Positions 45,481-54,979 of a DNA stretch of 64,000 nt are shown here, one piece after another (the first letter of the stretch is position 1; each line of letters opens with the position of its first letter). This stretch comes from an uncultured Roseburia sp. (lineage in GTDB: Bacteria; Bacillota; Clostridia; Lachnospirales; Lachnospiraceae): positions 51,935 through 115,934 of the forward strand of contig CANDCP010000004.1 of the NCBI GenBank assembly GCA_947383215.1, read 5' to 3'. The position numbers and the translations under genes were made by a program. Under the pieces are notes generated by a model that was not told the origin of the DNA, did not search any database, and worked only from the letters and a program-made list of their open reading frames with translations.

Positions 45481-46644
45481 TTACATTCCGACATACACGC
45501 CGTTTTCAATTTTTACGGCCTTAGGCTCTTTGTTTACTTCCCCTGTCTCGGCCCACTTTAAGCCGTCCTCGCCGCCGGTCAGACCGTTAACGTTAATTTT
45601 TGTCATCGCCGCCTTCAACGCGTCGCAGATATCGGAAGACGCTGTCTTTGGCGTAATCTCGGTTCCGTCCGCAGCAGCCTGCTCGATGGCCGCTTTAATT
45701 GTATAAACCGCATCGTAAGCGTCCGCCGCAAACTGATTCGGCGTATCGCCATATTTCTCTTTATATGTGGACACAAACTTCTTCGTCGCCTCGTCGTCCG
45801 CATCCGCGGCAAACGGCGTAAGCAGCATAACGCCTTCCGCAAGGCTGGTGTCAAAGTTCTCCATAGTAAGGATTCCGTCCATTCCGTCGCAGCTAAAGAA
45901 AATCGGATCAAATCCCATCGCATCCGCCTGTGTCAGGATAATCGAAGATTCCTGATAATAAATCGGAAGAAATACAAGCTCCGCGCCCGCATCCTGCGCC
46001 TTTTTTAACTGCGTGGAAAAGTCCGTCTTGGAATCCGCCGTAAAGGCCTCCGCAGACACAATCTCAAGCCCCTGATCCGCCGCTTCTTCCACAAACTTTT
46101 CTTCGATACCGGAAGAATATACGTCAGAGCTGTCGTAAATAATCGCAACCTTTTTTGCAAGATTATTCTCACCTATGTACTGCGCCGATTTCGTCCCCTG
46201 ATTCGGATCCGTAAAACAAATCTGGAATACGTTATCTCCTTTGATGACGTCCGTGGAGGAAGCCGACGGAGTTACCTGAAACATATTATCCGCCCCGGTC
46301 TTATCTACAACGCCCACGCAAGGAAGCGTCGTAACCGTTCCCATAAGAATCTGCATTCCCCAGTCCTTCAACGTATTGTATGCGTTTACCGCCTTTTCCG
46401 CGTCGTTCTGGTCGTCCTCAAATTTGTATTCAATCTGGTATCCGCTGATGCCGCCCGCCGCATTGATTTCATCGACCGCCAGCTGCGCCCCGTTCTTTAC
46501 CGCTGTTCCGTAAATCGCAGTTCCTCCCGTCGTCGGTCCGATTCCGCCGATATAGAGAGCATCCTTTTTTTCCTCCGAACCGCAGCCCGCCAACATAGAA
46601 AACGCCATAGCTGCCGTCAACAACACACTAATCACTTTTTTCAT
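45481..46644 (-). CDS. livJ: Branched-chain amino acid binding lipoprotein LivJ
   Basis: A 387-residue extracellular binding protein. Signal peptide with lipobox LAGC, cysteine 21, followed by a short acidic linker. The mature part starts LYIGGIGPTTGGTAIYG, the type I periplasmic-binding fold of the Leu/Ile/Val family, with INAAGGISGYQIEYKFEDDQND and QVTPSASSTD. It delivers the amino acid to LivHMGF. AAAGGAGGA ribosome site, strong promoter, own terminator, so it can be made in excess over the membrane parts. Confidence 0.94.
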   Translation of the reverse strand: MKKVISVLLTAAMAFSMLAGCGSEEKKDALYIGGIGPTTGGTAIYGTAVKNGAQLAVDEINAAGGISGYQIEYKFEDDQNDAEKAVNAYNTLKDWGMQILMGTVTTLPCVGVVDKTGADNMFQVTPSASSTDVIKGDNVFQICFTDPNQGTKSAQYIGENNLAKKVAIIYDSSDVYSSGIEEKFVEEAADQGLEIVSAEAFTADSKTDFSTQLKKAQDAGAELVFLPIYYQESSIILTQADAMGFDPIFFSCDGMDGILTMENFDTSLAEGVMLLTPFAADADDEATKKFVSTYKEKYGDTPNQFAADAYDAVYTIKAAIEQAAADGTEITPKTASSDICDALKAAMTKINVNGLTGGEDGLKWAETGEVNKEPKAVKIENGVYVGM

Positions 46645-46721: not shown

Positions 46722-47453
46722 CTACGTCCGGTTCGCCTTCCTGTACTCTGACGGCGACTGCCCCATCACCCGCTTAAACACTTTTGAAAAATACTTTTCA
46801 TCATGAAATCCCACCTTATAGGCAATCTCATACGTCTTAAGATAATTCTGCCTCAGATAAGTACACGCATGATCGATCCGAAGCTCATTCAGATAATCCA
46901 CAAACCCTTTCTCCTGTGAAAAAAGCGTGGAGAGATAGCCTGCCGTTATTCCGACCTTTCCCGCCACCTCCACAAGCGTAAGATTTTCAAAATAATGCTC
47001 CCCCATATATTCTTTGGCCCGCTCGACAAGATTATTTTTTCCGTCCGAAACACAATCCCCCGCATCCCGCTCCACCTTCTCAATCCCGTTGGCCGCCGCA
47101 TTGAGCCTCTGCAAAATATCAGAAGAGCGGACCGGCTTTAACAGATAATCCTTCGCGCCAAGGCGCATCGCCTGCTGGCAGTACCGAAATTCATCATAAC
47201 CGCTTAGAATCAGCGTATACGGCAAAATTTCCGCCCTCCTCGCCTCCTGCATCACCTCTATACCGTTCTTTAACGGCATCTGTACGTCTATCAGCATAAT
47301 ATCCGGCTTACTGCGAAATATGATATCGACGGCCTCCGCGCCGTTCGCAGCCAGATAAACCTTATCAAAGCGGTCCGTATGCAATTGTATATATTTTGCA
47401 ATTCCATTGCGGATCACATCTTCATCATCTGCGATTAATAGTTTCACGCTCAT
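46722..47453 (-). CDS. YesN-type response regulator with AraC DNA-binding domain
   Basis: A 243-residue regulator. Receiver: VKLLIADDEDVIRNG, phospho-Asp in IMLIDVQMPLKNG, conserved Lys in DYLLKPV. After a short linker, a C-terminal AraC-type double helix-turn-helix (NLTLVEVAGKVGITAGYLSTLF and TYEIAYKVGFHDEKYFSKVF). ATG at 47453 has AAGGAG upstream and overlaps the kinase 3' end by 29 bases. In this family the regulator usually activates the sugar ABC transporter encoded beside it; here that is the gene set at 49-52.5 kb. Confidence 0.93.
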   Translation of the reverse strand: MSVKLLIADDEDVIRNGIAKYIQLHTDRFDKVYLAANGAEAVDIIFRSKPDIMLIDVQMPLKNGIEVMQEARRAEILPYTLILSGYDEFRYCQQAMRLGAKDYLLKPVRSSDILQRLNAAANGIEKVERDAGDCVSDGKNNLVERAKEYMGEHYFENLTLVEVAGKVGITAGYLSTLFSQEKGFVDYLNELRIDHACTYLRQNYLKTYEIAYKVGFHDEKYFSKVFKRVMGQSPSEYRKANRT

Positions 47454-49272
47454 CAATCTGCAACTCCTTTAATCCGCACGGTATCCTTATCATTACCGTG
47501 GTACCGCGCCCCTCTTCGCTTTCGATTCGGAGCTCAAAGTCTTCTCCATACATAAGCTCCAAACGCTCTCTGACATTTTTTATCGCGTATCTTCCAATTC
47601 TCTGGCTGGCATATTCTCTGGTATCCGGCTCCACAAAAATTGCCGCAAGCTGCTCTTTGTTCATGCCGACACCCGTATCCCGAATATAAAACACCATATG
47701 ATTCCCGTCTTCTTCGCCGCTGACCGAGAGATGAAAAAGATCGCCCACTTTCTCAAACCCGTGTACGATTGCGTTCTCCACAAAAGGCTGCAAAATAAGC
47801 TTCGGTATCTCCCGCTCCAAAATCGCCTCGCTCATTGATACCTTATATTCCAGACGTTTGCCGAAACGCATTTTCTGAATATGCAGATACCGCTCTAATA
47901 GCTCTCCCTCACTGCGGACTGAGACAATACTGTTTCCTCTGTTTAACACGAGTCTGAAAAGCTGCGACAGCGTCAGAATATCCTCCGCCGCCTCCTCATT
48001 TCCGTCTTCCAGCACACGCCAGTAGAGAGTGTCCAGCGTATTATACAAAAAATGAGGGTTAATCTGAGCCTGAAGCACATCCAGCTCACTCTCACGCTCC
48101 TTTAACGCCATCACGTAATTTTTGTCAATTAGCTCTTTGATATCGTCTACCATGCCGTTAAAACAGGCCGAAGCCTCCCCCACCTCATCCGACGTTATCA
48201 CTTCCACCTTCTGCCCGAAATCTCCCCTCTTAAATTTTTCCATCGCCGCACACAGCGAGTGCAGCGGCTTTGAAACAATGTTGGATACCAGTATCATAAT
48301 CGGATATAAGCCGACCAGAAATCCGATTAAAAACGCAAGCGGCGTATAGACGACGGAACCGAGCGAACTCAAAATTCCGCTCTTGGGAACCAGCTTATAG
48401 ACAACCGTCCCCGTCTCTTCGCTCCTGCACCGGTAAACATGGTAATCCGCGTACTCGCTGTCCGTACTGACCGTCCTCCCGTCAACGGGCTTTTCCTGTT
48501 CTTCTTTAATGATCTCCGATATCCTCTTTTTTGGAACGTTTCCGACGCACAAAAGCTGCGCCCCGTACTCGCTCACCACGACAACCGCCTCCGCGTCGCT
48601 TCGCAGAGAATTTCGAGCAAGCTCGTCAAATTTATCGGCCTGGGCTCCGATCACAAGAAATCCCCGCCTGTTTTTCCTTGCAAGATCATAGATTTCCCTG
48701 TACATCACAATTTTATCATTGCGGTTCATCTCGTAAGTGTCCGACTTGTACTTTCCGACCCTCTGCCAGATCATCTTCCCCTTCTCGCCGGCCGCGAGCG
48801 CATAGACCTTCTGCTTTCTGACCTCCTCAATATCCGCAATATGCGCAGAAAAATCGATGCTGCGCAGATATGGATTAACGCCGTTCTCCGGATAAATGGC
48901 AACCGTCTTAATCTGTCCGTTCAACGCTACCATATCCTGAATAATTTTCATCGGCGCATCGTGAAGCCATAACTGCGAATCCCGGTTAATCTCCGTCGGA
49001 TCCTGCGCGCTTAAAATCCTGGTAATATCATGGTTAATGCAGATATACGTCCCGAACTCCATTATCCTCGTCTGCATCACTTCTATACTGTCGGAAAGCC
49101 CAAGCACGCTCTGATAACACGTCTCCTCCTCCGCTTCCTGCGCCAGATTATAATTATATAAAAACAAGAGTACGCTAACCAGCAGCAAAATCGGGGTAAT
49201 AATGACGTAGCTGTAAAAAATCAGCTTTTTTCGAATACTCAATCCCAAAACCCAATATTTCAACCGCTTCAT
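47425..49272 (-). CDS. YesM-type sensor histidine kinase
   Basis: A 615-residue kinase. Helix 1 at about 15-36, a large extracytoplasmic sensor, helix 2 at about 300-325, HAMP (SNIVSKPLHSLCAAMEKFKRG), then the His_kinase domain with QINPHFLYNTLDTLYW (phospho-His) and ATPase motifs (LILQPFVENAIVHG, RDTGVGM, GRGTTVMI). This is the LytS/YesM class. Start at 49272 has GAGG upstream. It is downstream of the two sugar permeases and overlaps the regulator gene. Ligand probably a sugar or its binding protein. Confidence 0.93.
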   Translation of the reverse strand: MKRLKYWVLGLSIRKKLIFYSYVIITPILLLVSVLLFLYNYNLAQEAEEETCYQSVLGLSDSIEVMQTRIMEFGTYICINHDITRILSAQDPTEINRDSQLWLHDAPMKIIQDMVALNGQIKTVAIYPENGVNPYLRSIDFSAHIADIEEVRKQKVYALAAGEKGKMIWQRVGKYKSDTYEMNRNDKIVMYREIYDLARKNRRGFLVIGAQADKFDELARNSLRSDAEAVVVVSEYGAQLLCVGNVPKKRISEIIKEEQEKPVDGRTVSTDSEYADYHVYRCRSEETGTVVYKLVPKSGILSSLGSVVYTPLAFLIGFLVGLYPIMILVSNIVSKPLHSLCAAMEKFKRGDFGQKVEVITSDEVGEASACFNGMVDDIKELIDKNYVMALKERESELDVLQAQINPHFLYNTLDTLYWRVLEDGNEEAAEDILTLSQLFRLVLNRGNSIVSVRSEGELLERYLHIQKMRFGKRLEYKVSMSEAILEREIPKLILQPFVENAIVHGFEKVGDLFHLSVSGEEDGNHMVFYIRDTGVGMNKEQLAAIFVEPDTREYASQRIGRYAIKNVRERLELMYGEDFELRIESEEGRGTTVMIRIPCGLKELQIDERETINRR

Positions 49273-49302
49273 AGTGCACCTCATACGTTTTTTATTTTTA
49301 TT

Positions 49303-50139
49303 TTATCCTTTTACGGCCCCCATTGCAACGCCCTTTGTGATGTGCTTATTTAAAATAATATACACAATCACCGCCGGGGCGGCCGTCAATGCCATGACCG
49401 CAAACTGGACCGCATAATTCGAGGAATATTCCCCGGTAAATTCCAGCACGGAAAACGGCAGCGTCTTCCATGTCGGCGAGCTTAAATATGTACTCGCCAT
49501 CATAAACTCATTCCAGTTATTTAAAAACGTCATAATCGCGACCGTAGCTATGGAAGGCTTTAAAAGCGGCGTTACCACCTGGAATACAATCCGGTAAATC
49601 CCGCAGCCGTCCATCACAGCGGCCTCCTCGAGTTCCATCGGGATCGACTCGATAAAACCGGTCATCAGAAACAAGCCCTGCGGAAGCGAGAACGCCACAT
49701 ACGGAATCAAAAGCGCCCATATCGTGTCCGTGACTCCGATTGTATTATAAATCTTATAATTCGGAAGCAGCGTCGCATGAATCGGTATCATCATCCCAAG
49801 CAGCAGCATGGTTTTGACAAAATTATTCAGCTTCCATTTCATTCTGCGGCACGCGTATCCCGCCATAATAGATATGATAACAACCAGTATCACCGCAAGC
49901 GTGTTAATTAATACGCTGTTTTTCAGATAGAGCAGAAAATTGCCGTCCACAAATGCCTTTGCGTAATTGTCCCATCGAATTTTCTCCGGGATAATCAAAA
50001 GCCCGTTCGTAAACATTTCGTTGCTGCTTCCAAGGGAAAAATCGATCAGCCAGATAAGCGGAAAGAGCTGAATAACCGCAACCGCAATCAGTATCGTCCA
50101 CAAGACTACCTTGCCTATTTTCTTTCTTCCTGTTTTCAT
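49303..50139 (-). CDS. Sugar ABC transporter permease 2 (MsmG/MalG-like)
   Basis: A 278-residue permease with six helices. The coupling EAA motif reads EEAAVMDGCGIYRIVFQV, followed by TPLLKPSIATVAI. N-terminal KVVLWTILIAVAVIQLFPLIW is typical of MalG/MsmG. AGGAGG precedes the ATG. It works with the upstream permease and binding protein in CUT1 type oligosaccharide uptake; no ATPase gene is present, so a shared MsmX-type ATPase encoded elsewhere is expected. Confidence 0.92.
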   Translation of the reverse strand: MKTGRKKIGKVVLWTILIAVAVIQLFPLIWLIDFSLGSSNEMFTNGLLIIPEKIRWDNYAKAFVDGNFLLYLKNSVLINTLAVILVVIISIMAGYACRRMKWKLNNFVKTMLLLGMMIPIHATLLPNYKIYNTIGVTDTIWALLIPYVAFSLPQGLFLMTGFIESIPMELEEAAVMDGCGIYRIVFQVVTPLLKPSIATVAIMTFLNNWNEFMMASTYLSSPTWKTLPFSVLEFTGEYSSNYAVQFAVMALTAAPAVIVYIILNKHITKGVAMGAVKG

Positions 50140-50149
50140 CTCCTACCTC

Positions 50150-51025
50150 CTATGCTTCCTGCTTATCCCGGAATACCGTATTTAACAACACGGTTACCGC
50201 CACACAGATAATGATAAAAACAACGCCGATCGCATTGCCGTATCCGTACTTAAACGCCTTAAACGCCTGCTGATACAAGTAATTTGCCGCAAACTGCGTA
50301 CTGTTTGCAGGACCGCCGTTCGTCAACAGATAAACGGTCTCCATCTGCTTTAAGGCGGAAATAATCGCCATTGTCACATTAATCATGATCACCGGCTTCA
50401 TAAGCGGCAGCGTAATTCTGGAAAATGTCGTCCACCATCCGGCGCCGTCAATCGAGGCCGCCTCATAGAGAACCGGATCAATATTTTTAATACCGGTATA
50501 GTAGATTAACATTCCCCACCCGAATCCGTGCCAGATCAGCACGACGAGCACCGACCAGATCGCATTCTCCTGCGAGAGCCAGTTGACCTGCCCCTCAAAC
50601 CCGAACACTTTTAAAACGTTGTTCAAAAGCCCGAAATCCGGATTGTAAATAAATTTCCACAGGTACGCGATGACTGCCACGGAAATTACGTTCGGTATAA
50701 AATAGATGCAGCGGAAAACTCCCTCCGCCTTTCCCTGAAGCTTGTCGAGAACCGCAGCCACGATCATCGCGAGCGGATGCTGAATGCAGATAAATCCGAT
50801 TGCCAATAGCAGCGAATTTAACAGAGAACGCCCAAACGCCGGATCGTGGAACAGCTTTACATAATTATCAAGCCCGACAAAACGCGCTTCCCCCATACCG
50901 GAATAATCCGTAAACCCATAATAAACGCTAAGGCAGATCGGAGCCAATATCGCAAACAGGAACACCAGCACGCCGGGCAGAACCAGGGTAAAAATCACCC
51001 ACTTATTGCTGTATAATTTCTTCAT
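50150..51025 (-). CDS. Sugar ABC transporter permease 1 (MsmF/MalF-like)
   Basis: A 291-residue permease with six helices. The coupling segment is YEAASIDGAGWWTTFSRI followed by TLPLMKPV. It has the family feature VIFTLVLPGVLVFLFAILAPI. Start: ATG at 51025 (MKKLYSNKW), one codon after a TTG, with AGGAG upstream. It is ten bases before the second permease. A terminator separates it from the binding-protein gene, giving binding protein in excess. Confidence 0.92.
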   Translation of the reverse strand: MKKLYSNKWVIFTLVLPGVLVFLFAILAPICLSVYYGFTDYSGMGEARFVGLDNYVKLFHDPAFGRSLLNSLLLAIGFICIQHPLAMIVAAVLDKLQGKAEGVFRCIYFIPNVISVAVIAYLWKFIYNPDFGLLNNVLKVFGFEGQVNWLSQENAIWSVLVVLIWHGFGWGMLIYYTGIKNIDPVLYEAASIDGAGWWTTFSRITLPLMKPVIMINVTMAIISALKQMETVYLLTNGGPANSTQFAANYLYQQAFKAFKYGYGNAIGVVFIIICVAVTVLLNTVFRDKQEA

Positions 51026-51085
51026 CAAAATCTCCTTTCAGGCTGAAACAACATATTTCGCCCCTTCTCCTATGCCGATCACAGA

Positions 51086-51156: not shown

Positions 51157-52548
51157 TTACTTACATGCTGCGCCGATTGTCGTAAGGAAATCATCTACGC
51201 TTGTCGAACCGTTCGATACACCCTGAATCTCACTCTCAATTGCCGTTTTAAATGCGGATGGTCCACAATCGTTAATCGGAGTTCCCGAAACACTTGTTGC
51301 TTTATTTAAGATTTCGATAATCTGTTTTTGTAACTCTGTCTCATTTCCCGTCATATATTCGCTCTGATCCTGCGCAGACATTCCTACGCCGTTCTCCCAG
51401 CCATATTTCGAGAGCTTATCCGGCTGATACATAAAGTTCAAGAATTTAATAGCCTCGTCTTTCACCGCCGAATTTGCCGATACCGCATATCCGCCGCCGT
51501 TCCATGCCGCAATATCATTCGCTCCGCCTTTTCCGTCCTTCACAACCGGCATCGTAAACGCGCGGATATTGGTTCTGATCTCTTCGGAAATATCCTCGTT
51601 CAACGCCATGGAAGAATCCCAGCTTCCCATGCAGTACATTGCCGCCTGTCCGTTTGTAAATAAGTTCTGCGTTGTTCCGTAATCCTGGGAATCATATCCG
51701 GTCTGGAACATTCCCGCCGCCGCCGAGTCAACCAGAAGCTGTGTCGCGGTCTTTAACTCCGGCGCGGAAAAATCGCCGGTCGAAATCGCGTTGCTAATTA
51801 TATTTGAATGCTCTGTTCCCGCAACCTTTACAAGAAGGTCCGTCAAAAAGCACGCCATCGGCCAACCGTCGCCGCCGTCCATTGCAATCGGCGTGATGCC
51901 CGCATCTTTAATCGTCCCGCACAGTGTCATCAAATCCTCGTATGTAGACGGAACCTCCCAGGAATTATCCTCAAACATTTTCTGGTTGTAATAAATTAAC
52001 ATAATATCGGTATTTCTCGGAAGCCCGTAAAGCTTTCCGTCCTTTTTAAAGCCTTCCAGCGAGCCGGATATAAACTTGTAATCCGCATAATCGCCCTCGT
52101 TTAACTCTGCAAGCACGCCCGCGTCGAGTACCTCGTCAAGGAAAGAAGGCTGTCCCCAGATGCTTACCACATCCGGCATTCCGTCCATCGCGTACGCCTT
52201 AAACTTTGTCTTATATGCTTCCTCGTCAAGCGCCTCCACCTCGATTTTTACGTTCGGATTTGCCTCCATATACTCATCGATAATCATCTGCTCTACAAGA
52301 CCCTGTCCGTTTTTGCGGTCCGGAAGATTCGAAAACAGCTTGAGCGTTACATCCTCGCCGGAAGCTGTGTCGTCGCCGCTCTTATCATCCTCTTTGTCAT
52401 CGGCCTTATCGCCCTTTGCATCGGCCGAAGCGCTTGTCTTGTTATCCGAGCCTGTCTTCGTACTTTCCTTCTTGCTATCGCCGCAGCCCGCCAGCACAGA
52501 CACTGACATTGCCGCTACCAACAACGCTGCAATCAACTTTTTCTTCAT
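51157..52548 (-). CDS. Sugar-binding lipoprotein of the ABC transporter
   Basis: A 463-residue family 1 extracellular solute-binding protein. Signal peptide with LAGC (Cys22), then a long acidic Lys/Asp/Ser linker to about residue 65. The mature domain has LKLFSNLPDRKNGQG, DEYMEANPNVKIEVEAL and AMYCMGSWDSSMALNE, as in clostridial oligosaccharide-binding proteins. Sugar unknown. GGAGGT ribosome site. Its promoter carries an 18-bp element shared with the chemoreceptor gene. Confidence 0.93.
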   Translation of the reverse strand: MKKKLIAALLVAAMSVSVLAGCGDSKKESTKTGSDNKTSASADAKGDKADDKEDDKSGDDTASGEDVTLKLFSNLPDRKNGQGLVEQMIIDEYMEANPNVKIEVEALDEEAYKTKFKAYAMDGMPDVVSIWGQPSFLDEVLDAGVLAELNEGDYADYKFISGSLEGFKKDGKLYGLPRNTDIMLIYYNQKMFEDNSWEVPSTYEDLMTLCGTIKDAGITPIAMDGGDGWPMACFLTDLLVKVAGTEHSNIISNAISTGDFSAPELKTATQLLVDSAAAGMFQTGYDSQDYGTTQNLFTNGQAAMYCMGSWDSSMALNEDISEEIRTNIRAFTMPVVKDGKGGANDIAAWNGGGYAVSANSAVKDEAIKFLNFMYQPDKLSKYGWENGVGMSAQDQSEYMTGNETELQKQIIEILNKATSVSGTPINDCGPSAFKTAIESEIQGVSNGSTSVDDFLTTIGAACK

Positions 52549-52586: not shown

Positions 52587-52647
52587 ATCATACCATCCGC
52601 CAAACAGGGATAACAGATACCAGAATTCCAAAATAGTGTAAAATTTT
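52587..52647 (-). promoter_or_regulatory. Promoter of the sugar ABC genes with shared 18-bp element
   Basis: The -10 TATGAT is at 52587-52592 (minus) with no good -35, as expected of an activated promoter. Upstream, AAAATTTTACACTATTTT (minus strand, 52630-52647) lies 37 bases from the -10. A 16/18 identical element at the same distance precedes the chemoreceptor gene. Confidence 0.7.
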
Positions 52648-52653
52648 CGGATA

Positions 52654-54705
52654 TTATTCCACCTGAAAACTGCTTACCTCTCCCGTCAGTCCGCACATAT
52701 TTTCATTTAACACCTCGGCCAGGGAATCAAGCTGCTTTACGTGAAGCATAAGCTTTTCCGCAATTCCCCCGACAGTCTCGACCGAGGCCGTAGTCTGCTC
52801 GATCACGCTGGATATCATCGCGATAGCGGTAAGCGTTCCCTCCCGGTCCGCGTCCGCGTGCGAAACCTTCCCCGCAATCGTATTCAATCCCTCAAACATC
52901 CGCTCCATATCCGTCTTCATCTCCACAAAAGCGCTTAATAGCCCGCGGACGCTGTTCGTCTGGGCGCGCACGATTTCCCCCGCGTCCTTTGTGCTCTCAA
53001 CGCTCGCCTCCATCTGCCGCTGTATGGTCTCAACGCTCCCTCTGATCTCATTCGCCGCATTTGACGACGCCTCCGCAAGTTTTCGGATTTCCTCCGCAAC
53101 AACGGAAAATCCCTTTCCGGCCTCCCCCGCGCGCGCCGCCTCTATGGAAGCGTTCAGCGATAAAAGATTTGTCTGCCCCGATATCTCATTTATCATATCC
53201 ACGAACTCTTCGATAAGGGCCGTCTGTTCCTTCAGCCCGTAAATGCTTCTCTCTACGTCCCCCGTTTTCTCATCCGCAAGCTCCGATTTCTCATTGAGCG
53301 CATTCATCGCCTCCATCCCCTGCTCTATCATCTGTCCGGTCCTGTCAATCTGGCGCTGCGCCCTTGTCACTTCCTCGCTGACCGCGCGGATATCCTCCGA
53401 GAGACGGTTGGATTTATCGAGGCATTCGGCCGCGCTCACCGCCTGGGATTCCATACCGATGCGAATCTCCTCAAGCGCTTCCGTAATGCTGCTGGAATAA
53501 CGCCCGATTTCATCGGAAGTTCCGCTCACCTGGTTTGTCGAATCCTCAAGCTGCCTCGTGGCGTTTTTCACCTTGCAGACAAGCTTTTTCGTTCCGTGCA
53601 CCATCCCGTTCATAGAATCCGCAAGGCTGGAAAATTCGTCTTTCCCCTTGACGCGCACTTCCACCGTCAGGTTTCCCTGGGCCACTTCCTCGACTTCCCT
53701 TACAACGCGCTTCATATTGCGCTGGATTCTCTCGGAAATCCAAAATCCCAAAAACAACGCCAAAAAAGACGCCGCTATCACGAGTACGAACGTCACGTTT
53801 CGTATCTCATATGCCTGGCTGACCACCGTACTCTCCGGCACCAGCGCGCACACAGCGGCGCCCGTCTTTTCACTCCGGCTGTATAAAAACAGATATTTTT
53901 CTCCCTCCATCCAAATAAAATCCGCTCCCGAAAGCTCTTCCGACTGCATGGCATCCTGGTAGAAATCCCACTCATAAAAATAAAATTCATTTTCCGGATC
54001 CGCGCATACCTCTCTTCCGTTCTCGGTAACAAACGCTACCGCCGCTTCCTCGCCGGCATCGAGCTTTTTTAATATCTCCCCGATTTCGGATTTTTTGATA
54101 TCGATCGTGACGCACGCTTTCCCGCCGTCAGACATACAGTTATAATTTAAAATATAATCTTCGTCCGAAATCCCGATCTGCTCGTCCGCGTACGCATGGC
54201 CGTCGTACCAGCCCGCGCTCACCTTCTCCTGCTCGTTCCACGCTTCCAAAAAGCCTTTCCTCTGGCTCTGATTTCCGCTGGTAAGCATCTCCACCTGTTC
54301 GCCCGTGATAATATAAATTCCGCTGATCATCGGGTTAACCACCGCGGATGTCCTAAGAGAATCTTTCGCCGTATTCAGCGCCTCGGCTCGTTTCGTCGGA
54401 TTATTTTCATACAATCCGAGATAATACTGCGAGAGCTGCGTATCATAGGCGTATTTAAACGCCTCCGACTCAATCAGCTTGCATCCGTAATCAATATATT
54501 CCACAATCGTGTTTAACGTCTGCACCGTGGATTCCGTATATTTCTCTTCCATACCGGCCGCCGCCTTCCGATAAGAAAAAAAACCTACGAGAATTACGCA
54601 GACGATCGGCACGATAAAACAAATCGCAATTTGCCTGCGAATACCGAATTTTCTGCCTCTGCGCCTCTTAACTTTCATTCCCTTATTTTTCTTTTGTCTC
54701 TTCAT
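52654..54705 (-). CDS. Methyl-accepting chemotaxis protein
   Basis: A 683-residue chemoreceptor. Very basic N-terminus ([18 protein letters not shown]), helix 1 at about 24-46, extracytoplasmic sensor of about 260 residues (Cache-like), helix 2 at about 307-327, HAMP ([19 protein letters not shown]), then a long cytoplasmic coiled coil. The signalling tip is [18 protein letters not shown], with the usual [15 protein letters not shown] after it. No C-terminal CheR pentapeptide. AGGAGGG ribosome site. It sits between the sugar ABC/two-component cluster and dlt, and shares the promoter element of the sugar-binding gene. Confidence 0.95.
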
Positions 54706-54758
54706 ACCTGAACCCTCCTGATATCGCCCCGGGCCGTTCGTCCCGTTATCCCACTTTT

Positions 54759-54819
54759 ATTATCAGGCGTTTTTTCTCAAATAAGAAGGGTATAATATTC
54801 GAAAATGGTGTACAATTTT
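54759..54819 (-). promoter_or_regulatory. Promoter of the chemoreceptor gene with shared 18-bp element
   Basis: The -10 GATAAT is at 54759-54764 (minus). The element AAAATTGTACACCATTTT lies at 54802-54819, again 37 bases upstream. It touches the stop codon of dltX and adjoins a CAATTTTAAAATTG palindrome. Confidence 0.7.
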
Positions 54820-54979
54820 AAAATTGCTCGTAAATAAACACAGGCGCGGATGAATCCTTTGACGTCAGAAAATAAATCCACAGCGCGACGAAAATCAGGT
54901 AAAAAACGAGCGTTCTTCCCGCAAACGCAAGCTTTTCGTTATTTTTCCAACGCTTTATAAAAACGATAAATCTGTTCAT
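54818..54979 (-). CDS. dltX: DltX, small teichoic acid D-alanylation protein
   Basis: A 53-residue protein: basic N-terminus (MNRFIVFIKRWKNNEK), one hydrophobic helix (about residues 22-38, RTLVFYLIFVALWIYFL), a short polar stretch, and the C-terminus FIYEQF. The aromatic C-terminal motif FxYxxF and a single helix are the known hallmarks of DltX, which works with DltB and DltD in moving D-alanine to teichoic acid. The start lies inside dltD in another frame, with a 41-base overlap. Usually dltX precedes dltA; here it ends the operon. Too short for common gene-size cut-offs. Start choice is the only uncertainty. Confidence 0.8.
   Translation of the reverse strand: MNRFIVFIKRWKNNEKLAFAGRTLVFYLIFVALWIYFLTSKDSSAPVFIYEQF

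Follow-up and report, generated by a model that had tools for sequence, protein, structure and literature searches.

Are the uptake of a sugar and a chemoreceptor encoded next to the transporter controlled by one and the same regulator? The question is raised by a locus from an uncultured Roseburia sp., which we analysed in a 64,000-nucleotide stretch of contig CANDCP010000004.1 (the window), part of a genome of 2.86 Mb in 77 contigs. On the minus strand of the window, the genes for DltA, DltB and DltD are followed by those for a methyl-accepting chemotaxis protein with HAMP and MCPsignal domains (the chemoreceptor; 52654..54705), an extracellular sugar-binding protein of the SBP_bac_8/SBP_bac_1 kind (SBP; 51157..52548), two sugar ABC permeases of the MalF/UgpA type (50150..51028) and the MalG/UgpE type (49303..50139), a YesM-type histidine kinase (HK; 47425..49284) and a YesN-type response regulator of 244 amino acids (RR; 46722..47456). 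The HAMP, His_kinase and HATPase_c domains of the HK (PF00672, PF06580, PF02518) and the receiver and AraC-type HTH domains of the RR (PF00072, PF12833, PF00165) all score above the Pfam cut-off; by its domains, the pair is a YesM/YesN-type two-component system. The outer domain of the chemoreceptor is weakly Cache-like at 22.4 bits, below the Pfam cut-off of 45, and a profile search matched it to two receptor structures with weak E-values (0.004 and 0.0095). We refer to this group of genes as cassette 1. It departs from a three-component (SBP-HK-RR) arrangement such as CuaDSR, in which a separate SBP gene dedicated to sensing adjoins the HK and RR genes, since here the permease genes intervene. 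Within the named genome collection, its SBP is closest (92% identity) to that of another uncultured Roseburia, locus L009.

Two further genes border on the cassette. The one after the RR gene (window 45481-46644, minus strand) encodes a binding protein of the branched-chain amino acid type (Peripla_BP_6), a different transporter class. At the other end, a 53-aa open reading frame (window 54818-54979, minus strand) with the C-terminus APVFIYEQF overlaps the end of dltD, with its stop codon reaching into the chemoreceptor element described below; we take its product to resemble the small DltX protein.

Two promoters with a common element

The first-pass annotation had pointed to two minus-strand 18-mers, AAAATTTTACACTATTTT before the SBP gene (52630..52647) and AAAATTGTACACCATTTT before the chemoreceptor gene (54802..54819), which agree in 16 of 18 positions and each lie 37 bases from a -10 hexamer, TATGAT (52587-52592) and GATAAT (54759..54764, minus strand), respectively. 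Both the sequences and the distances are present as claimed. It had further held that such agreement is hard to explain by chance, a view for which the window itself gives only suggestive statistics: a scan allowing up to 3 mismatches returned 2 matches where 0.31 were expected, and two or more matches arose in 3 of 100 shuffles. Across the whole 2.86 Mb, the two window 18-mers are the only exact matches and the next best differ at 2 positions; when up to 3 mismatches were allowed, 38 matches were found, against 31 for the reversed pattern. The weight of the claim is carried instead by conservation across species.

The same comparison across species corrects the extent of the element. While the 18-mer is real, it forms only the upstream one of two halves in a signature of about 38 bp; the second half, TATCTGT, follows about 21 bp beyond the first. 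At the SBP promoter, the putative downstream half-site is TATCTGTTAT (52610..52619, minus strand), about 21 bp past the upstream half and at the place of the -35, and the hexamer TATGAT is part of an extended -10, TGGTATGAT (52587..52595, minus strand). With its putative half-sites separated by about 21 bp, the second of them lying over the -35 position, and with the -10 at a fixed distance, the SBP promoter matches the layout of an AraC-type activator-dependent promoter. An AraC-type activator bound beside the polymerase would need such a layout. The chemoreceptor promoter has the upstream half and the 37-base distance and is a weaker site than that of the SBP gene. The extended TG is absent, and the second half, TACCCTTCTTATTT (54779..54792, minus strand), is weak, although by-eye comparison with L009 and a further, more distant relative, L027, indicates that the CT of positions 32-33 is retained; at the place aligned with the proposed GATAAT, L027 has GACAAT.

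Conservation before the transporter and before the receptor

Is the signature conserved before the SBP genes of other genomes, as a functional operator should be? One scan yielded 78 loci encoding relatives of the SBP, mostly from Lachnospiraceae and including the cultured Kineothrix alysoides and Anaerocolumna aminovalerica, and 70 of their SBP promoters were examined together with that of the window. The element (up to 3 mismatches to a widened pattern) occurs in 67 of these 71 promoters, window included, and is absent from four (L054, L058, L061, L073), so that conservation upstream of orthologous binding-protein genes, which the first-pass annotation had put forward as a check of its proposal, is found. 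Spacing is conserved just as strictly: TAnnnT lies exactly 37 bases past the element in 64 of the 67 rows, with at most 6 at any other distance from 30 to 44, and the extended form TGnTAnnnT is found at the 37-base spacing in 63. Rows that align without gaps share the block AAAATATTMCACYWTTTT, then TATCTGT some 21 bases on, and finally an extended -10, TGnTAnnAT. The downstream half corresponds to consensus positions 29-38, and 64 of 67 rows have CT at 32-33. The absence of a good -35, likewise part of the original proposal, extends to the relatives: none of the 67 aligned rows comes within 1 mismatch of TTGACA at spacers of 15-19, and with 2 mismatches the rows number 4, 0, 0, 1 and 3 at these five spacers. 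Plasmids searched with the SBP promoter gave no match.

Might such a block simply help the polymerase to bind, without any regulator? An A+T-rich element whose inferred position, judged from the -10 distance, is about -50 to -67 would suit an UP element for the polymerase alpha subunit. C10, A11 and C12, however, are each found in at least 94% of the 67 rows and C32 T33 in at least 95%, and neither such fixed bases nor the exact spacing are features of UP elements, which makes this explanation highly improbable. We treat the signature as a candidate activator site.

A regulator reading this site ought to travel with the gene that it controls. SBP, both permeases, HK and RR are found together in 57 of the 78 loci, in the same order in all 57, and HK and RR accompany the SBP in 66, as would be expected of a cognate regulator; neither is found in 5, some on short contigs. 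Eight loci have an HK but neither permease (L013, L054, L070, L073, L074, L075, L079, L082), the HK match of L013 lying on the opposite side of the SBP gene. In L054, L073, L075 and L079, which lack permease matches, the HK gene directly follows that for the SBP, with the RR gene next in L073, L075 and L079, as if the SBP were a sensor only; assembly faults are also possible.

To rank sites within genomes we used a sequence-only model, R1, built from 53 promoters that included neither the window nor L009. It places a site upstream of the SBP gene in 74 of the 78 loci scanned, namely in all 53 training loci and in 21 of the 25 others, some of which are near-copies of training rows; none was found there in L048, L054, L058 and L079. 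Of the 150 candidates scored in the genome of the window, out of 1688 from a first look, the SBP promoter (55.9 bits, E 8.6e-15) ranks highest and the chemoreceptor promoter (18.8 bits, E 0.003) next. The third match (C1:8018, 17.8 bits) overlaps coding sequence, and we dismissed it as a chance match. The two promoters likewise rank first and second within L009 (54.3 and 22.9 bits) and within L027 (57.3 and 11.6 bits), while the 11.6-bit site is not among the 16 matches listed for the whole genome of L027, where 150 of 2539 candidates were scored. The E-values of R1 are optimistic, in that a threshold of 0.01 should let through about 3 of 299 genomes and lets through 57, and the argument therefore rests also on place, strand and spacing. 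Nor is the score decisive by itself, because a match of at least 18.8 bits occurs, under stricter filters, in 29 of 299 family genomes, some of these matches being true cassette sites.

Is the site before the chemoreceptor gene, then, an operator in its own right? At E 1e-70, close relatives of the receptor's outer domain occur in 2 of 395 genomes, that of the window and G007; G007 and L009 carry the same locus and are counted once. A third copy of the receptor, in L027 (genome G305), has matches in two frames and lies in convergent orientation past a glycoside hydrolase (GH30) gene that follows the RR gene. In both of these, the only close orthologues found, the element is kept before the receptor gene at the same 37-base distance, as the shared-activator proposal predicts. 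Although the gene is placed elsewhere in L027 and the sequence upstream of the block differs, the block from element to -10 is retained: the best ungapped 62-mer between the window and L027 receptor upstream regions has 45 of 62 identical positions, whereas the best among 2000 Markov-resampled pairs has 36. The receptor evidence thus comes from no more than two independent lineages, whose common ancestry may account for some of the similarity.

Receptor homologues at large are different. Among 27 receptor loci of about 4 kb each (26 and the window's own), only L096 has matches to the widened pattern at up to 2 mismatches (two), and the match that precedes the receptor gene was discarded, as it appears to fall within the preceding reading frame. 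Because the 26 other loci are nearly devoid of the element, it tracks the orthologue and not the receptor family as a whole. Around the receptor homologues (28 loci, L092-L119), an SBP gene is found in L118, the G007 orthologue, permease genes of the cassette kind in L106, and weak HK or RR matches alone in L094, L110 and L112; these loci have flanks of 1.5 kb, which miss wider linkage, including that of the second cassette described below.

It is conceivable that only the SBP site is real and that its counterpart before the chemoreceptor gene arose by chance or has decayed, the gene being transcribed from another promoter, for example one for sigma-28, or by read-through from dlt. Sigma-28 (FliA/SigD) promoters have the -10 GCCGATAA with TAAA 15 bases upstream, and the window sequence GCCTGATAA resembles that -10, with one extra base. 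The weak second half-site, the missing extended TG, the poor fit of GATAAT and GACAAT to a -10, and the overlap of the element with the stop of the small open reading frame at the end of dltD all speak for this possibility. Against it, the second-best site of the genome lies before the adjacent gene, with strand and spacing both as expected; the block persists in L027 despite differing upstream sequence, while the GCC is gone there (AGTTGACAAT at the aligned place, by eye); and the pairing of SBP and receptor is repeated in a second cassette. We regard a chance or decayed site as unlikely, and take the chemoreceptor element to be a probable, if weaker, copy of the operator before the transporter.

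A second cassette and the candidate regulator

The genome of the window (G000) contains a second such cassette (cassette 2) on contig 1, in L187/L188 (C1:63772-82412), all on the minus strand. Its genes are, in order, a second chemoreceptor, whose outer domain is 31% identical to that of the first, a GH94-type and a GH149-like gene, a GH30 gene that is the only PF02055 match of the genome, an SBP, two permease-like genes, a short open reading frame, another SBP-domain gene directly before the HK, the HK and an RR of 494 aa. The permeases and HK are assigned by order and by the start of their sequence only, and the GH149 assignment falls below the NCBIfam cut-off (111.8 versus 1150 bits). Upstream of the chemoreceptor and of the first SBP lies another element, AACTAAAAAAATRACACC; these are the only 2 matches in the genome at up to 2 mismatches, the reversed pattern having 1. 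From element to -10 the distance is 41 bases before both genes, and across four genomes (G000, G007, G002, G105) it is 41 bases in 6 of 7 promoters and 42 in the seventh.

In G002, of the same genus, the element precedes both the SBP (1 mismatch) and the receptor (2 mismatches), the best two sites in the stretch and strand compared; in G007 it precedes the receptor with 2 mismatches, the SBP side lying outside the stretch compared. In G105, which belongs to another genus, there is an element with 2 mismatches before the SBP; another, with 5, precedes the gene that opens the receptor's operon, and no good element lies directly before the receptor. Apart from the receptor, the cassette-2 genes of G002 and G105 were recognised by the start of their sequence and by order only. 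Homologues of the cassette-2 receptor (E 1e-60) occur in 5 of 395 genomes, and in the fifth of these, G052, no such cassette was found in the 15 kb examined. The same pairing thus appears twice in one genome with different predicted operators, which chance does not easily explain.

Which protein reads these elements? The first-pass annotation had named the YesM/YesN-type pair encoded with the transporter, and that choice gains support from the linkage of HK and RR to the SBP and from a second cassette with its own regulator and its own element. The cassette's own regulator appears to be the best candidate for three reasons: it accompanies the element, the variant of the element differs from one cassette to the other, and CuaR, a YesN/AraC-family RR of Ruminiclostridium cellulolyticum, is described as recognising the region upstream of cuaA and inducing the neighbouring sugar-transporter operon (PMC5663094, PMC10384115). 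A different and more global regulator of carbon use might conceivably read the sites, which are A+T-rich and, in both cassettes of the genome, share the core ACACC. Such a regulator would have to be reconciled with the finding of only two good sites per element in the genome, both at cassette genes, with the pairing, in each cassette, of a distinct element variant with a distinct RR, and with the presence of HK and RR genes alongside the SBP in most relatives. Moreover, G002 (86% complete) has no cassette-1 SBP at E 1e-60, yet it carries cassette-2 elements before both SBP and receptor. A global regulator is, on balance, quite improbable; we consider it rather probable that each cassette's own YesN-type regulator activates both transporter and chemoreceptor through a shared type of operator.

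How might such a switch operate? We envision that the sugar is sensed, through the SBP or directly, and that the YesM-type kinase then phosphorylates the RR, which would bind both halves of the tandem site, spaced by about two helical turns. Binding at the downstream half would cover the place of the missing -35, so that RNA polymerase could use the -10, and start transcription at the predicted position, only with the help of the activator. Since the same site stands at the same distance before the chemoreceptor gene, receptor synthesis would follow transporter synthesis, and a cell that has met the sugar would add a receptor, presumably for that sugar or for its complex with the SBP. The genome has matches to the CheA dimerisation domain, and a chemotaxis pathway is therefore likely to be available. 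The earlier idea of a single two-component system for uptake and chemotaxis stands as regards the shared sites, their spacing, conservation and rarity in the genome, the linkage of the genes and the repetition of the design, whereas the binding and action of the regulator, the start sites, the sugar and the ligand of the receptor are what we infer.

Substrate, further genes and known systems

What might the sugar be? Among the best named solved-structure matches of the SBP are XylA, a xylo-oligosaccharide binder, and binders of chitin oligosaccharides. We did not adopt these as substrates, because a GH30 gene follows the RR gene in 24 of the 78 loci (best piece at least 47% identical to the GH30 of L166) and R1 sites precede glycosidase genes. 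In other genomes, such sites lie before the GH30 genes of L166 and L170, and in L165 before a permease gene and before the gene for a secreted protein that carries a catalytic core domain of glycosyl hydrolases (PF11790); in L166 a GH3 gene without an R1 site of its own adjoins that for GH30. Among the 78 loci, R1 sites precede permease genes in L039, L040 and L071 and genes for long secreted proteins in L073 and L075. The GH30 of the relatives, together with the GH94-type and GH149-like genes of cassette 2, suggests that beta-glucan oligosaccharides are transported.

In five loci the cassette-1 signature also precedes a gene whose product, of about 175-185 aa, resembles type IV prepilins: L022 (16573-17251), L023 (13840 onward), L024 (13734-14363), L025 (15225-15850) and L028 (15183 onward). 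All three of the proteins tested (L022, L024, L025) have an N_methyl motif, and those of L023 and L028 were recognised by sequence likeness. This suggests that in these five loci a pilin is under the same regulator. Strong R1 sites in L021 (14440-14505) and L082 (10195-10259) have no prepilin-like gene directly after them, and are perhaps left over from a lost gene.

Co-regulation of a chemoreceptor with the uptake of its presumed ligand has a parallel outside the Firmicutes. PcaY of Pseudomonas putida is reportedly a proteobacterial example in which receptor, transporter and catabolic genes are under one regulator. The proteobacterial cases differ in that the regulators belong to other families, the ligands are others and the hosts are Gram-negative.

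Closer in kind is the CuaDSR system with cuaABC-cbpA (PMC5663094, PMC10384115), where a YesN/AraC-family RR and an HK are encoded beside a sugar ABC transporter. Cassette 2 resembles it further in the second SBP gene before HK and RR and in the GH94-type gene, whereas in the window cassette the SBP of the transporter is the only one and the HK and RR genes come after the permeases. No chemoreceptor is mentioned for CuaDSR in the text available, the word 'chemotaxis' being absent from that of PMC10384115 and confined to a reference title in that of PMC5663094. The Gram-positive polysaccharide utilisation loci (gpPULs) of Roseburia and E. rectale likewise combine an ABC transporter, glycosidases, an HK and an RR with an AraC-like domain, and the tabulated genes of gpPUL Ros-7 include a methyl-accepting chemotaxis sensory transducer; in the excerpts at hand, the transducer is given as a member of the locus, a shared operator is not mentioned and 'GH30' does not occur (PMC5320581). 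The beta-1,3-glucan clusters with GH94, GH149, GH161 and GH30 share with our cassettes the phosphorylases, the glucosidases (GH30 or GH3) and the ABC transporters, most of which lack an ATPase gene, but the words 'chemotaxis' and 'two-component' are absent from the accessible part of their description (PMC6484121). The literature searched (top-ranked papers, with few subscription journals) contained no YesN-type regulator common to a sugar transporter and a chemoreceptor. The step from regulator to transporter is therefore ordinary, given the precedent of CuaR, and the link to the chemoreceptor is the new part.

A broader reading, which we offer tentatively and hold to be somewhat less than an even chance, is that in some Lachnospiraceae the sugar-sensing YesN-type regulators are portable control modules that attach genes for surface behaviour to a transporter, be it a chemoreceptor, as in both cassettes of the genome studied here with their different predicted operators, or a prepilin-like protein, as in other members of the cassette-1 family. 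Taxis or adhesion would then be induced by the substrate, and a receptor for a glycan would be gained only after that glycan has been sensed. The 38-bp signature can be used for tracing YesN-type regulons across Lachnospiraceae.

To our knowledge, most chemoreceptors of gut Firmicutes have no assigned ligand. An operator shared with a sugar transporter would point to the probable ligand class of such a receptor and predict when it is made, and orphan receptors would become testable. If the proposed regulation is true, it would provide Gram-positive gut bacteria with a simple coupling of feeding with movement or adhesion, and a cell may turn on the uptake of a sugar and swimming towards that sugar together.
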